Of a DNA stretch of 23,119 nt, positions 7,050 to 18,556 are shown piece by piece. The DNA is taken from positions 1 through 23,119 of the IMG/VR virus record IMGVR_UViG_3300047276_000834; one strand, written 5' to 3'. The notes under the pieces were generated by a model. The model saw only the letters and a list, made by a program, of their open reading frames with translations, was not told where the DNA came from and ran no database searches. The translations under genes and the position numbers were made by a program. Numbering within the stretch: position 1 is the stretch's first letter; each line of letters starts with the position of its first letter. This DNA comes from a virus.

Positions 7050-9043
7050 GTGTTCATTGATAGCTAGTTCAGATCCTGGTAGGTATGCCCTTTCAAGATT
7101 TGGTAAATAGCTCCGTGGTTACAGTTAAACTTTTCAGCAATCTTTCGATAAGAAAGTCCTGCTTCTTTTAAAGCTTTAATCTGAGCCACGTCATCCGAAG
7201 AAAACTTTCTCAAAGATTTTTTCGGCCTCCCTTTGCTGGCAAAACCATTGTTTATGTAACAACCGTTTTTCCAGGCTCTTGTTAAATTTTCTTGTTTGGT
7301 AACGATCTCAAGATTATCAAGACAATTATTTTTCTTGTTGTTATCTTTGTGATCCACCTGAAGGGAAAAGTTACTGGTTCCATGAGAACGCAGATCTAGT
7401 CCCAAGAAGGCAACAGCCATCAAGACATGAAGATGAAAACGCTTCCTCTTTCCATTAACAAGAACTGAAACACGGTCATAAACACTGGTTGAACGAATAG
7501 GAATTTCTCGAAAATATTCTTGATTGTCGGGATCAAGTTGTTTTTCAAAAGCTTTTCCTTCCTCCGTTAAGTAAAGATTACCAAATCCAGGCACAAGTTT
7601 CGGATTCATGTTGTTTATAAACAAGTTTCCAAACGATAGCATGCCTCAACTGAACGCTCAACGTTGTCACCTCACCGAGCAATCGATGAGTGCAAACCGG
7701 ATGAATTCAGGGAAGCCCTAGCGTAAAGACGAGGGTAATCCTGAGCCAAGCCAATCAAGCGTGATTGGAAGGTGCAGAGACTACTGGGTGTAACACGATC
7801 TTGTTACGTAATACCAGATTTAGCGTCCGGCATCCCTCAGGGATGAAGAGATAGTCCACCCCTCTAAGAAACTAGAGACCAGGAGAACGACTTTCCAAAG
7901 ATTTTAGGTGCGGAACTTTATCGTCCCCACCCTGCATACATTGCCGAGATGGCAGTGGAGCCCGTGGTTGTCCATGACTTCACCCGCCAGCCTGGTCAAA
8001 CTGTTCAGCTCGACCGCTATAAGTTCTGGGGTACCCCTGGTACGAAGGACAGCCGCGAGCGTATTGCTGACCAGACCATCGGTACTGCCAACAGCCGCAA
8101 CATCACCAAGGAGAAGGTGCTTGTTGTGCTGAAGGAATACACCGGTCCTGCAGACCCGGGTGATCCGACCCAGCCTTCGACCTTCAAGATTGCACGTGAA
8201 ACTCTGATTACCGCCCAGCGCCTGCTGCTGGACACCGGTAACCTGAACATGTTCCACCAGTCCATCGGCAGCCTCACCCTGCTGGATGACTACCGCCGGT
8301 GGCGTGATCGCGTGTTCATCGACGAACTCGCCAAAGCTGAAGCCAATGGTGAAGCTTCCAGCACCCAGGGTGGTTACTACTTCCCTGGCGGCAAGAACAA
8401 AGCCGCCAACGGATCTGTTTCCTACACTGCTGCTGAATATGCCGCTCAGGTCCAGCAGTTCCAGGTGCGTACCGACTTGCTGACCGTTGTTAAGGATCTG
8501 CGTAAGCGCAACGTTCCTACCTTCGCTGATGGTCTGTATCGTTGTATTTGCGATCCCACCTTCATGATGCACCTGCGTCGTGATCCTGACTTCCGTGAGA
8601 TCGCTCGCTACAGCGGCAATCCTGGTCAAGGCATGTACATGGGCAACCCCATGATGCCTAACAACGCCAGCTTCTACATGGGTCCCCAGGCTGGTCAGGG
8701 TTACTTCCTGGCTGGTGAGCCCGTCATGCCGACTGGTGTTCAGTTCGAAGGCGTGAAGTTCTACGAGTCGACCAACTTCCCGACCAAGACTGTGTCTGCA
8801 ACCTTCGCTAGCGATGGTGCTAACACCTTCTCCAACCAGGAAGTGGCTCAGGGTTACTTCTTCGGTCCTCAGTCCATCGGTGTTGGTATCGGCGGTCCTA
8901 ACGCCCAGGTGCTCATCAACAACAACGATGACTTCAGCCGCTTCATCATCCTGATCTGGCAACTGTACGCTGGCTTCGAAATCCTGAACAAGGACTTCGT
9001 GACCACCGCCTTCAGCTTCGTCCAGGACGACGGCACCATCTGA
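7050..9043 (+). CDS. Major capsid protein, split by group I intron (7050-7058 joined to 7883-9043)
   Basis: The main shell protein of the phage head, with position after portal and scaffold and strong codon bias (C-ending AAC, TAC, TTC codons), as expected for the most abundant product. A single uninterrupted gene would have to start at ATG 7949, but the frame remains open and protein-like upstream to 7868, with no Shine-Dalgarno at 7949. A good GGAGG at 7035-7039 precedes GTG 7050, whose frame stops after five codons. Removing the intron 7059-7882 joins MFI to ENDFPKILGAELYRPHP and gives a 389-residue protein. The 3' junction could instead be at 7885 (one codon shorter). The fold is probably HK97-like, with possible kinship to N4gp56-type capsids. 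I cannot confirm the subfamily without a search. Confidence 0.85.
7059..7882 (+). ncRNA. Group I self-splicing intron in the capsid gene
   Basis: All core elements of a group I ribozyme occur in order on the plus strand: P (GAATTCAGGGAAGCC, about 7703-7717), Q (GGTAATCCTGAGCCAAGCC, 7734-7752), R (GTGCAGAGACTA, 7772-7783) and S (AAGAGATAGTCC, 7846-7857). They closely resemble the core of cyanobacterial tRNA introns. The internal guide ATCGATGA (7682-7689) pairs with TCATTGAT (7054-7061), leaving a U-G wobble at T7058 and G7685 that marks the 5' splice site. A P9 hairpin CTCTA/TAGAG (7862-7866/7873-7877) leads to the terminal G at 7882. The roughly 620-base P1 loop holds an HNH gene on the opposite strand. 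The splice sites are predictions from pairing rules. Confidence 0.9.
7064..7642 (-). CDS. HNH homing endonuclease encoded antisense within the intron
   Basis: This 192-residue protein carries an HNH core around residues 88-125: LQVDHKDNNKKNNCLDNLEI then TKQENLTRAW, the pattern typical of phage HNH homing enzymes. The N-terminal 80 residues resemble the beta-rich DNA-binding part of that family. The C-terminus (KFSSDDVAQIKALKEAGLSY onward to HGAIYQILKG) is a resolvase-like helix-turn-helix. Its likely role is to cleave intronless capsid alleles so that the intron is copied in. It fills nearly all of the P1 loop, ending within six bases of the 5' splice site, but it is on the strand opposite to the ribozyme. 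It therefore needs its own antisense transcript, and I see no obvious promoter for one. Confidence 0.88.
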   Translation of the reverse strand: MLSFGNLFINNMNPKLVPGFGNLYLTEEGKAFEKQLDPDNQEYFREIPIRSTSVYDRVSVLVNGKRKRFHLHVLMAVAFLGLDLRSHGTSNFSLQVDHKDNNKKNNCLDNLEIVTKQENLTRAWKNGCYINNGFASKGRPKKSLRKFSSDDVAQIKALKEAGLSYRKIAEKFNCNHGAIYQILKGHTYQDLN

Positions 9044-9915: not shown

Positions 9916-10326
9916 ATGCTTTATCAGCACCGTAAGACTGGCGCTCGCGTCAAAGTTGTAAGCGAATGGGATAACGGCGATTGGTTCATGGTCGAAGATC
10001 AGGACGGTCGCCTTTATACCGCTTACAAAAATGAATTGACCCCTGATGAAGCTGCAACTAAAAAAGTTGCTACTCTTCAGGTTAAGGATAAGGCAGCCCA
10101 AGAAGAGCCTCGTACTTTCCCACCCGAAACACGTTTAAATATCAATAGTGCCACTCCTCAGATGATCGCTGATCACATCAAGGGAATTGGTCTTAAGACA
10201 GCTCGAGAGATTAAAGATCTTCAGATGTCCTTATCGGGTGAGAAGTTTAATAGCCTTGAGCAGTTAAGACAGATTAAGCGTGTGGACTGGGAGGCAGTCC
10301 TTGCAGCCGACTTAATCAGGGTTTGA
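9916..10326 (+). CDS. Helix-hairpin-helix DNA-binding protein
   Basis: A 136-residue protein with two parts. Residues 1-45 (LYQHRKTGARVKVVSEWDNG to about DELTP) look like a small SH3-like beta domain. Residues 70-136 form a helix-hairpin-helix region of the ComEA/RuvA type: INSATPQMIADHIKGIGLKT contains the hairpin signature IKGIGLKTA, followed by AREIKDLQ and a second helical repeat ending AVLAADLIRV. HhH domains bind the DNA backbone without sequence specificity. In this position it could act at the head-tail junction or on packaged DNA, but no specific role is established. Its start is unusual because a stable hairpin ends one base before the ATG. Confidence 0.75.
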   Translation: MLYQHRKTGARVKVVSEWDNGDWFMVEDQDGRLYTAYKNELTPDEAATKKVATLQVKDKAAQEEPRTFPPETRLNINSATPQMIADHIKGIGLKTAREIKDLQMSLSGEKFNSLEQLRQIKRVDWEAVLAADLIRV

Positions 10327-10347
10327 TCCATTCGCCACAAGACAAGG

Positions 10348-10371
10348 CCCCTGGGAGACCGGGGGTTTTTT
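10348..10371 (+). terminator. Rho-independent terminator after the capsid/HhH genes
   Basis: CCCCTGG-GAGA-CCGGGGG forms a 7-bp GC-rich stem (one T-G pair) with a GAGA tetraloop, followed by six T residues (10366-10371). It lies 20 bases after the HhH gene stop and before the M23 gene start, and is the clearest terminator in the window. Confidence 0.88.
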
Positions 10372-10397: not shown

Positions 10398-11066
10398 ATG
10401 GCTGGTATTCAGTATTTTGGGCAAGTTGGCGCAACTGGAACTGCGACGGGTCCGCATAAACATGTTTATGTAAAAGAGCTTGCAACTGGCAAGTACCTGG
10501 ATCCAGCGACTATTCGCACACCTTTACTTGGTCTGCGTATTGGTGAGAAAAAGATACCTGCATTAATTAAAACTCCAGAAGGAAAAATTGAATTTAATCC
10601 AGCAGCTGGAATTACTCTTACATCGCGATACGGTCCACGGAGTGCACCAACCGCTGGCGCCAGTTCTTTTCACCAAGGTGAAGATTGGGCATTACCGGAA
10701 GGGACGCCTATTTATTACGAAGGTGGTGGCAAGTTTATTCCAAAAGCAAACCAAGGAGGGTTTGGAAATCTTGCTACGTTAATTACTGGTGACAATAAAT
10801 ATGAAGTTGGCTTGGGACACATGAAGACTCTGGGGGGTGCCTCTGATCTACCACCGACTACACTCCCTGTTGATACATCTGCTCCAGCCTCTGAGGGCGA
10901 CCTGAGCACATTGATGTCTCTTTTGCAGTTAACCAAACCAAAACAAAGAACGCTCCAAGATTCACTCCTTGAACAATCTTTGGGTGAATTAATGAACCCC
11001 CAACCGAGCATGGCTCAGCAGTTTTTGATGGGCTACATCAATGCACCGTTGCCCAGTATTGAGTAA
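10398..11066 (+). CDS. M23-type zinc endopeptidase with circularly permuted motifs
   Basis: M23 (LytM-like) peptidases cut peptide cross-links in peptidoglycan. All five catalytic residues of the family are present, but in permuted order. The motif usually at the domain's end comes first: GQVGATGTATGPHKHVYVKE, with His20 and His22 equivalent to the HxH motif. The usual opening motif follows: SSFHQGEDWALPEGTPIYY, with His92 and Asp96 as metal ligands, then GGFGNLATLITGDNKYEVGL and His141, matching the central 'YaHl' His. The remaining 80 residues form a disordered linker and a helical tail ending QQFLMGYINAPLPSIE. ATG 10398 is chosen over the in-frame ATT-rich extension from 10323, because that extension reads through the terminator. 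AAAAAGAAAAAG precedes the ATG. A virion-borne wall-opening enzyme is likely. Confidence 0.8.
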   Translation: MAGIQYFGQVGATGTATGPHKHVYVKELATGKYLDPATIRTPLLGLRIGEKKIPALIKTPEGKIEFNPAAGITLTSRYGPRSAPTAGASSFHQGEDWALPEGTPIYYEGGGKFIPKANQGGFGNLATLITGDNKYEVGLGHMKTLGGASDLPPTTLPVDTSAPASEGDLSTLMSLLQLTKPKQRTLQDSLLEQSLGELMNPQPSMAQQFLMGYINAPLPSIE

Positions 11067-11105: not shown

Positions 11106-11567
11106 GTGCAGTTATCTGACTTTGACAAAAGTAGAGTTAGGTATCACCTGGGCTACTTTACCGTGTCTGTTCCAGCTGGTGATTATGCCCGCTTGGAAGA
11201 AGCAATGAATACCATCCCGGATTCATACTTCTATGACAAGGTTGTTATTCAGCTCGGTCGTTGTGATACGGCCGAAAAGAAAACAGAAGTTGCATCGACA
11301 CCTTCGACGCGAGTTGAAAGCATCCTCGGCGACGTGGATCGTACAATTCGCTCTAGTAACGCCGCCGAGTCGTTAAAAGTTTGGGACGAGATTTATCTCT
11401 ACGAAACCAATCGTCTTGCCGGCATTCTTTATGTCCCGAACTACAAGGACCCATTCCAAGCCAGATACCGTTACGAACGCTCTGGCGCTGAGTTTATTCA
11501 AGCTCTACCTGGTCCTGCAGATACTGCAGTGGGCTCTCGTCTTTATCTTCATGAGGTTTGGCGTTAA
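11106..11567 (+). CDS. Unknown protein, possible head-tail connector
   Basis: The 153-residue product starts with GTG behind a good GAAAGG ribosome-binding site. It opens with a helix-strand segment (QLSDFDKSRVRYHLGYF then YARLEEAMNTIPD), has a mixed middle, and ends with an aromatic, beta-rich part (WDEIYLYETNRLAGILYVP, then RYRYERSGAEFIQALPGPAD). It looks like a small folded alpha/beta protein of the size of head-completion or neck proteins, and it lies downstream of capsid genes where these are coded. I do not recognise the family. The stop is three bases before the next ATG. Confidence 0.7.
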   Translation: MQLSDFDKSRVRYHLGYFTVSVPAGDYARLEEAMNTIPDSYFYDKVVIQLGRCDTAEKKTEVASTPSTRVESILGDVDRTIRSSNAAESLKVWDEIYLYETNRLAGILYVPNYKDPFQARYRYERSGAEFIQALPGPADTAVGSRLYLHEVWR

Positions 11568-12619: not shown

Positions 12620-13237
12620 ATGTCTTACACCACTGAACAACTCAAAGAAATTGCGCGGCAAAAAGCCCGTGATTTTGGTGTAAATGAAGACATCTTTCTG
12701 CGTCTTGTACAGAAGGAATCCGGCTGGAACCCTCAAGCTAAAAGCGGCGCAGGTGCTGCTGGCCTTGTTCAGCTCATGCCTGGCACGGCTCAAGGGCTTG
12801 GTGTTTCTAACCCCTATGATCCAGTCCAAAGCTTGACGGGTGGCGCTCGTTACTTGAGTCAACAGCTGAAGCGTTTTGGGTCTTATGACAAAGCATTGGC
12901 TGCATATAATGCAGGGCCAGGTAACGTCGAACGTTATGGTGGAATTCCTCCTTTCAAGGAAACACAAAATTATGTGAAAACAATTCTTGGCGGCGGAACT
13001 CCTCCTGCGGCAAAACCGCAAGTTGCCGAAGCCCCTGGAACTGCTCCTCAAGATTTTCTGAAAGGTTATCTTCTTCAGAATTTATTGATGGGTGGTCAGA
13101 ATGCCATTCCTTCTTTGGGTGAGCAGCTTCTAAAAACTGCATTCCAACGCCCAATGACTACTGTTGAAAGTGATATTTCAACGGCGTCCTTATTTACACC
13201 AAGGACACCGTTTTTGGAATCACTGACTCAGTTCTGA
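12620..13237 (+). CDS. Lytic transglycosylase (SLT, GH23)
   Basis: This enzyme cleaves the glycan strands of peptidoglycan without water, forming anhydro-muropeptides. The 205-residue protein has the SLT domain in residues 1-115: the catalytic Glu33 in [10 protein letters not shown], the conserved [20 protein letters not shown], then [20 protein letters not shown] and the closing AYNAGPGNV motif. Residues 120-205 are a linker and helical tail with the segment [15 protein letters not shown], similar in feel to the QQFLMGY tail of the M23 protein. No signal peptide is present, which fits a virion-associated enzyme that opens a hole in the wall during entry. Its 3' end overlaps the opposing HNH gene by 18 bases, and a terminator follows at once. 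Confidence 0.9.
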
Positions 13238-13828
13238 TTTTTTAGGCTTCACATCTGTGGAGCCTTTTTTATCGTGACGTTCTTTTGAAAATGCTTTTTC
13301 TAGCGGCCATCCACTGTTCAAACGTTTCTGCATTGACTGAGAACTAATGCCAACTTCTTTGGCCCAGTCTGCAATACACATGGTTCTCCCTTCAAATGTG
13401 TAGAGACGCGTGGCACGCTTACCTCCGCGATTCCGAGTTTGTTCTTTACGCGTAGCCCAGCGGCAGTTTTCTTTGCAGTAATCTTTGTCGTTATTAATTC
13501 TTTCCAGTTCCATTTTTGGACTGGGTTTTTCTCCCATATCTTTAAGAAAAACAGAGAAATCACTCCAAGAGGGATCATGCTTAATTCCGCGTCCGCCATA
13601 ACGTTCATAATGAGTACTATTTGGATTATTGCAACGATTACGCATTGAACACCAAGATGAGTATTCAGACATTTTTTCTTTGTATCCACCATGTTTAAAA
13701 TTTATACAACTCTTGGAGCAACAAACATATCCACGTTGTTTTATTTTTTTTCTGCAAATAGCTCCTGCATTTCCTTCTCTGGTGAATTTTTTCCCACAGC
13801 TTATACAAATAAATTCAGTTTGCAGCAT
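13220..13828 (-). CDS. HNH-type endonuclease, free-standing, antisense
   Basis: The protein has an N-terminal zinc-finger-like part ([11 protein letters not shown], then YVCCSKSC) and a central region typical of a large family of phage HNH-like homing nucleases: [20 protein letters not shown], then [15 protein letters not shown], then [20 protein letters not shown] and KEQTRNRGG. The C-terminus ([20 protein letters not shown] onward) is a helix-turn-helix-like DNA-recognition element. ATG 13828 gives 202 residues; an in-frame TTG at 13861 would add eleven. It sits on the minus strand between the transglycosylase and structural genes, and its end runs through their terminator. I see no group I core around it, so it is read as an intergenic selfish gene. 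Confidence 0.85.
13245..13270 (+). terminator. Terminator after the transglycosylase gene
   Basis: GGCTTCAC (13245-13252) and GTGGAGCC (13257-13264) pair over eight bases with a four-base loop and are followed by six T residues. On the minus strand the stem is followed by TAAAAAATC-complementary A-rich sequence, so it mainly serves the plus strand. It lies inside the 3' coding end of the opposing HNH gene. Confidence 0.82.
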
Positions 13829-13890
13829 TAGAATAAAGAAAGTTTTTGAGACCCCTGTCAATCTAACAGAGATAGGGTGTTAAGTGCAAA

Positions 13891-17853: not shown

Positions 17854-17869
17854 AATTTGTGTATGATTG

Positions 17870-17888
17870 GGGGTAACTTGGTTACCCC
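17870..17888 (+). promoter_or_regulatory. Hairpin abutting the lysozyme start codon
   Basis: GGGGTAAC-TTG-GTTACCCC is a perfect 8-bp inverted repeat ending two bases before ATG 17891. TATGAT (17862-17867) and TAGAAT (17851-17856) lie just upstream as possible -10 boxes. With no Shine-Dalgarno between stem and ATG, the hairpin is a candidate translational switch or operator for the lysozyme gene. Confidence 0.6.
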
Positions 17889-17890
17889 TT

Positions 17891-18556
17891 ATGTCTGACT
17901 TTTCTGGTGCGATTGAATTAATCAGGAAGTACGAGGGGTATAACGAGAAGGCATACCCCGATCCTTCTACGGGTGCCGAACCGTACACCATTGGTTACGG
18001 CACTCAATATTATCCAGACGGATCTCCAGTCAGGCGGGGCCATCTCTGCACGAAACGCAAAGCCCTGGAGTATCTGTACCATGAATTGGAAGTACTGGAC
18101 ACCGAGCTGAAGCGGTTGAACCTGGGGCTTGATGAATCAATGCACCAAGCGCTTCTTTCGTTCATTCACTCAGTTGGCTGGAACTCTTTCCTATACAGCA
18201 ACATCATTGACTGCTTAGAACAAGAGGACTGGCGTGGTGCCAGCGAAGAAATTCCCAAGTGGGTCTTTGATCAAGACCACAAGATGGTGGGAGCTCTTCT
18301 GCATCGCCGCCAGGAAGAAGTCTCACTGTTCCTGCGTGAAATCAACGATAACACCTGGGTCTCTACGGAGATTCTATTGACGGCGTTTCGGAACTATTCT
18401 GCAGCCACACACCAGGTCCGTGCCATCCGCCTTCTGGAAGAAGCCATCAACCCTTATACACTGTCTGAATTTGCCAACAACTTTCGAATCGAAGAAGATC
18501 CCTGGAACGCATCCGAGTTCGATGATTTCGAGCTAAAAGGCATCTGTGACATTTAG
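17891..18556 (+). CDS. Phage lysozyme (GH24 endolysin)
   Basis: This enzyme hydrolyses the glycan backbone of peptidoglycan and probably releases progeny at lysis. From ATG 17891 it has 221 residues. The T4-type catalytic triad is visible with correct spacing: Glu15 in IRKYEGYNEKAY, Asp24 in YPDPSTGAEP, and Thr33 in YTIGYGTQYYPDG. Further family features are ALLSFIHSVGWNSF and a GALLHRRQEEVSLFL segment at the end of the domain. Residues 155-221 are an extra, acidic helical tail (TAFRNYSAATHQVRAIRLLE onward) not usual in GH24 enzymes, which could target the enzyme or bind a partner. No signal peptide is seen, so release would need a holin. An upstream in-frame ATG at 17867 would read through the hairpin and is rejected. 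Confidence 0.92.
   Translation: MSDFSGAIELIRKYEGYNEKAYPDPSTGAEPYTIGYGTQYYPDGSPVRRGHLCTKRKALEYLYHELEVLDTELKRLNLGLDESMHQALLSFIHSVGWNSFLYSNIIDCLEQEDWRGASEEIPKWVFDQDHKMVGALLHRRQEEVSLFLREINDNTWVSTEILLTAFRNYSAATHQVRAIRLLEEAINPYTLSEFANNFRIEEDPWNASEFDDFELKGICDI

Follow-up and report, generated by a model that had tools for sequence, protein, structure and literature searches.

Order of the M23 segments in ORF 10398-11066

M23 is one of the main peptidoglycan peptidase families, and in every text found by our literature search its catalytic motifs are given in the order H(x)nD, then HxH. Can an open reading frame (ORF) in which HxH comes first encode a complete M23 domain? This question is raised by ORF 10398-11066 of IMGVR_UViG_3300047276_000834, the 23,119 nt stretch of viral DNA analyzed here (the window), which comes from a freshwater cyanobacterial virus related to Synechococcus phage S-EIVl. 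A sequence-only reading of the window had proposed that the ORF is a circularly permuted M23 peptidase. Circular permutation is also our best reading, supported by crossed alignments of two segments, by conservation of their order, spacing and catalytic residues, and by a single confident AlphaFold2 domain.

When the full ORF was compared with Pfam, M23 (PF01551) was the sole match, residues 91-144 aligning to profile positions 2-54 of 96 (E 8e-7) with a score of 29.6 bits against a cut-off of 28.7; a second search mode gave 21.2 bits, below the cut-off. The first 46 residues scanned alone against 24,736 Pfam families also gave a single match, M23, here with residues 5-36 aligned to profile positions 67-96 (E 0.11). 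Profile-profile comparison (hhalign) of a 30-sequence permuted family with 54 canonical M23 domains returned two good alignments in crossed order, query 65-145 to canonical columns 5-84 (probability 99.5, E 1.7e-22) and query 5-37 to canonical columns 96-127 (probability 96.8, E 2.9e-10), while the third-ranked alignment was noise. The same crossing was observed on the single chains 6muk, 3slu and 9m7n in a PDB search. The canonical linear order, H(x)nD before HxH, was not found in the ORF, and because the segment order is crossed we file it as a permuted variant rather than as an ordinary M23 member. Two segments of one domain are crossed and joined by a linker, without duplication, as is characteristic of circular permutation.

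The residue positions named in the sequence-only reading were correct: TGPHKH contains H20 and H22, HQGED contains H92 and D96, GGFGN spans residues 120-124 and H141 lies in GLGHM. H141 is invariant and stands in its own sequence context, yet it comes after HxH, whereas the canonical third histidine lies about 30 residues before HxH. No HxH was found after H141 in the ORF, and a dedicated search of the window found neither a second M23 copy nor an M23 gene of canonical order. The cut point could be placed by means of a local canonical profile, which the family matches at positions 2-77 and 90-121; the missing positions 78-89 correspond to a short hairpin (VxxGxxVxxG) linking the GHL strand to the GxTG segment.

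Conservation of the permuted order

Homologues were sampled by a first scan of viral contigs, which gave 42 loci, and by an alignment-based scan, which gave at least 80. The permuted order was kept in 54 of 54 distinct full-length homologues among the matches listed, and it is thus conserved in a cyanophage family; as described below, it extends to further phage groups and so goes beyond what the sequence-only reading had proposed. H20, H22, H92, D96 and H141 were invariant in all 30 representatives, at identities down to 42%, and the spacing from HxH to HxxxD was 74 residues in every one of them and 72 in S-EIVl. Asp in place of H22 (HxD) was found within the family in the S-EIVl member only. 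The ratio of nonsynonymous to synonymous substitution rates (dN/dS) was 0.02-0.12 over codons 1-150, which indicates purifying selection, with dS near saturation in several pairs. No tandem M23 was found in the homologous ORFs.

Two artefactual explanations of the crossed order were rejected. An assembly error is ruled out by more than 50 distinct homologues on independent contigs and, since the whole family keeps the order, the spacing and the catalytic residues, both a rearranged contig and a decaying tandem remnant are excluded. The start of a family member also lies on L141, a contig placed in a Lake Lanier bacterial metagenome-assembled genome and probably a phage contig binned with the bacterium.

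Predicted structure

AlphaFold2 returned one confident domain. Between residues 21 and 150 most blocks had a mean predicted local distance difference test score (pLDDT) of 94-97, and values were lower over residues 81-90 (79) and 11-20 (81). Strands were predicted at residues 4-10, 20-27, 95-98, 104-108, 111-116, 124-130 and 135-145 and correspond to the seven core strands expected of the canonical domain. The C-terminal 70 residues were modelled with low confidence and contain helices.

Permuted domains in other phage groups

A profile made from canonical M23 domains only was run over 11,576 ORFs. Among the matches listed, every full-length family member had the permuted order, and the only other permuted cases were Acinetobacter and Moraxella phage tape-measure proteins and cyanophage S-TIM54. 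The domain was matched in tape-measure or tail proteins of Acinetobacter phage R3177, of 23 other Acinetobacter phage records and of six Moraxella phages; those among them that were read through had the permuted order, with GPHLD or GAHLD replacing HxH. The tape-measure profile gave a collinear alignment with the cyanophage family (probability 99.1, E 8.8e-19). In S-TIM54 a permuted domain with HAH lies inside a structural protein which also bears a phage tail lysozyme domain. In permuted domains outside the main family (L044, L048, L132, L190, L212, L221, L224-L226) the motif is mostly HxD, with Asp at the expected zinc His, and at one further locus (L051) HxD occurs in canonical order. In Moraxella phages Mcat18, Mcat21 and Mcat22 and at L134, a break in the tape-measure reading frame falls inside the permuted domain, giving two annotated tail proteins, and PHROGs 20119 and 20905 meet at that point.

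Synechococcus phage P60 gp33 and its homologues in S-CBP1 and DSL-LC07 carry GPHLD ... H(x)8D ... FxHG at their C-terminal end. The H(x)nD spacing is variable in M23, being H(x)7D in phi29 gp13 and H(x)12D in LasA (PMC9662197). When the AlphaFold2 model was searched against viral models with Foldseek, the best named match was a P60 virion protein (probability 0.99, E 0.017). Profile comparison of the P60-type domains with the permuted family was not significant, so this link rests on Foldseek and motif order, by which P60-type podoviruses probably carry the permuted order.

In a tree built on 110 columns and containing long branches, permuted forms appeared in three places, needing three changes; a constraint holding them in a single clade was not rejected (approximately unbiased test, p 0.081). 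A survey of Gammaproteobacteria with the tape-measure profile found the permuted domain spanned in 1 of 369 genomes, the Acinetobacter genome on which the profile was centred, and a survey of Acinetobacter found it spanned in 7 of 99. Most matches in a profile search of genome contigs were canonical, including all those inspected outside Acinetobacter and L141.

With slightly less than even confidence, we suggest that permuted M23 domains may constitute a branch of virion enzymes that is widespread among phages, still without a name and of more than one origin. Freshwater cyanophages would carry its HxH type, Acinetobacter/Moraxella tape-measure proteins and T7-like cyanophages its HxD type, and S-TIM54 a third. 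If this is true, opening the chain at the hairpin would make both ends available for insertion or for fusion to a tail and leave the active site whole.

Gene neighbourhood and tail modularity

The putative portal/structural protein of the window is 72.5% identical to that of S-EIVl across 98% of its length, and the two share gene order. The structural genes of the window run from terminase (1214) through a portal-like gene (3756), the major capsid protein (7949) and an HHH protein (9916) to the permuted M23 gene (10398), which is followed by two conserved unknowns, the SLT transglycosylase (12620), further structural genes and the T4-type lysozyme (17867). By Pfam, PHROG and locus comparison the permuted M23 gene sits in the virion/structural module, with capsid on one side and other structural genes beyond it at every locus checked. 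An alternative in-frame TTG lies 5' of the gene at 10323; a start there would cross the terminator-like stem upstream of the ATG. Feature coordinates are collected in Table 1.

Table 1. Features of the permuted M23 gene and its surroundings in the window
Feature	Position	Strand	Basis or remark
Permuted M23 peptidase gene, 222 aa	10398..11066	+	ATG at 10398; stop 11064-11066
Residues 5-37, canonical M23 C-terminal segment (GxTGxxTGPHxH ... LDPA), placed first	10410..10508	+	hhalign, Pfam fragment, PDB chains
H20-K21-H22, HxH motif; H20 putative general base/water activation, H22 putative zinc ligand, by homology	10455..10463	+	30-sequence alignment; PMC9662197
Residues 38-64, linker from old C-terminus to old N-terminus	10509..10589	+	Between crossed alignments; pLDDT about 95
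Residues 65-145, canonical M23 N-terminal segment (TSRYGPR, HxGxD, GTPI, GGFGN, GHM), placed second	10590..10832	+	hhalign, Pfam, PDB
H92-Q-G-E-D96, HxxxD motif; putative zinc ligands by homology	10671..10685	+	30-sequence alignment
H141, third catalytic histidine (GHM)	10818..10820	+	Invariant; role by homology to LytM H260, PMC9662197
Residues 151-222, flexible C-terminal tail, partly helical	10848..11063	+	Low pLDDT; common to M15-like enzymes of sister phages, L036-L043
SLT lytic transglycosylase head with own conserved tail (residues 126-205), partner gene	12620..13237	+	Pfam SLT 2.7e-27
T4-type lysozyme, likely endolysin of the phage	17867..18556	+	Pfam Phage_lysozyme 1.3e-19; PHROG endolysin
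Terminator-like stem-loop between HHH gene and permuted M23 gene	10344..10369	+	Consensus match only

In the sister phages L036-L043 the slot of the permuted M23 gene, which has the same neighbours on either side (85-98% identity), encodes this C-terminal tail behind another head. This head has the motif HSPTGYHxxGxAIDV ... GPGDPGHxTHVH; its best match, the M15 muramoyl-pentapeptide carboxypeptidase 1lbu, was weak (E 0.067) and its AlphaFold2 model had a pLDDT of 49. One example is L039:7509-8129, and two zinc peptidase types are thus exchanged on one tail. The SLT slot behaves likewise, the tail (about residues 123-205) being clearly the same and the head exchanged in L036, L037, L041 and L043. 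The exchange there is between SLT and SLT/Phage_lysozyme2-like heads (L036:4066-4761, L037, L041, L024:11082-11774). Because the tail is kept while the head is exchanged in both slots, the tails look like loading or anchoring segments, and since the M23 tail is common to other enzymes in its slot, its probable role is to bring the enzyme into the virion.

The gene next after the permuted M23 gene (11106-11567) encodes 153 aa without a Pfam match and is among the best-conserved genes of the module, with 82-98% identity at every compared locus. HNH-endonuclease-like ORFs were found on the reverse strand among the structural genes, at 7064-7642 (-) and 13220-13861 (-) in the window and at L024:7398-7856 (-) in a relative; one of these HNH-type ORFs is close to the permuted M23 slot in a relative.

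Proposed function and alternative readings

Taken together, these observations indicate that the product of ORF 10398-11066 is most likely a virion-associated zinc metallo-endopeptidase, whose M23 (LytM/lysostaphin-type) domain is circularly permuted and which would open peptidoglycan at entry. A virion-carried enzyme is indicated by the gene neighbourhood, by the separate lysozyme and by relatives in tape-measure and internal virion proteins, and the strongest hint is the modularity of head and tail. Under the mechanism we propose, the chain would start at the GxTGxxTGPHxH strand pair, pass through a linker of about 30 residues which replaces the original ends, and continue into the HxxxD-GH(M/L) part, the new ends taking the place of the short hairpin which in canonical domains follows the GHL strand and leads into the GxTG segment. 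As in LytM, the zinc ligands would be H22, H92 and D96, and water activation would fall to H20 and H141. The flexible tail would load the enzyme into the virion, and during entry the peptidase would cut the peptide cross-links of peptidoglycan and the neighbouring SLT transglycosylase the glycan strand. Zinc binding, catalysis and bond specificity are presumed in this scheme.

Several points weigh against this interpretation. The catalytic residues are taken to lie close together on the strength of fold confidence and homology, the virion location and the loading role of the tail are deduced, and peptidase activity is predicted. In addition, a Foldseek search of the model against the PDB gave no M23 match, a result which is expected because a sequential aligner was applied to a permuted chain, and which lends no positive support.

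That the protein is instead a late endolysin, lysing the host from within, is improbable in our judgment. The PHROG models matching the ORF are mostly labelled endolysin, but the phage has a separate T4-type lysozyme matched by endolysin models outside the structural block, at every locus checked the permuted gene has capsid on one side and further structural genes on the other, relatives of the domain occur in tape-measure, tail and structural proteins, and the tail is common to another enzyme head in the same slot. We regard as quite improbable a domain-swapped dimer, in which one subunit would supply the HxH strand and its partner the HxxxD part of an active site. At about 30 residues, the linker could permit such a swap, which is compatible with the sequence and with the single-chain model; against it, the two halves and the linker are all modelled confidently in that single chain, and the same order occurs inside long tape-measure proteins, a setting less favourable to a swap.

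The ORF might also be read as an M23-like domain that binds or regulates without being catalytic, in the manner of EnvC and other LytM factors, since degenerate M23 domains are known (PMC9662197) and the tape-measure relatives have Asp for the zinc His. Every catalytic residue is nevertheless kept in the family, with HxD only in the S-EIVl member, and this reading is very improbable. Circular permutation usually arises via tandem duplication followed by trimming, which makes a tandem intermediate plausible, but that the ORF is a leftover of this kind, with the C-terminal half of one M23 domain, the N-terminal half of another and no working active site, is extremely improbable given the five catalytic residues and 74-residue spacing fixed family-wide, the low dN/dS, the high pLDDT across the junction and the searches of the window and of the homologous ORFs, which found no tandem or second M23 copy.

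Comparison with known systems

The literature search, which had subscription papers and preprints outside its scope, found no description of a permuted M23, and novelty is therefore provisional; the 2022 review of the M23 family (PMC9662197) contains no occurrence of 'permut'. There is precedent for permutation among peptidoglycan peptidases in the NlpC/P60 superfamily, which has permuted members (LRAT-like, YaeF/G6R; PMC6403190), although these are cysteine enzymes unrelated to permuted M23. With every active-site residue retained, a permutant found in nature would show that the M23 fold tolerates new ends.

The permuted protein resembles the M23B peptidases (LytM, lysostaphin, MepM/ShyA; PDB 3slu, 6muk; Brochothrix phage NF5 gp16, 9m7n) in both conserved segments and in the five catalytic residues, the signatures GxxGxTGxxTGPHxH and HxGxD...GTP...GGxGN...GH being common to both. 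Unlike them it has the segments reversed, lacks the hairpin (local canonical profile 78-89) and joins the old ends by a new linker of about 30 residues. The S-EIVl protein AHV82231, deposited as 'peptidase M23 family' without remark on order, occupies the same slot with the same permuted order at 34% identity, but it has Asp at the HxH zinc ligand (GAHLD) and, unlike ORF 10398-11066, no Pfam match. The tape-measure proteins of Acinetobacter and Moraxella phages (R3177, Mcat20) share the permuted order, but there the domain is embedded in long proteins and has HxD for HxH. P60 gp33 and its S-CBP1/DSL-LC07 homologues share the order GPHLD ... H(x)8D ... H but are very diverged, with HxD and the H(x)8D spacing. 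The permutation explains why Pfam matches ORF 10398-11066 by half and misses the S-EIVl protein and P60 gp33 completely, and the permuted order gives a clear lead in the search for peptidases hidden within tape-measure proteins and internal proteins of the virion.
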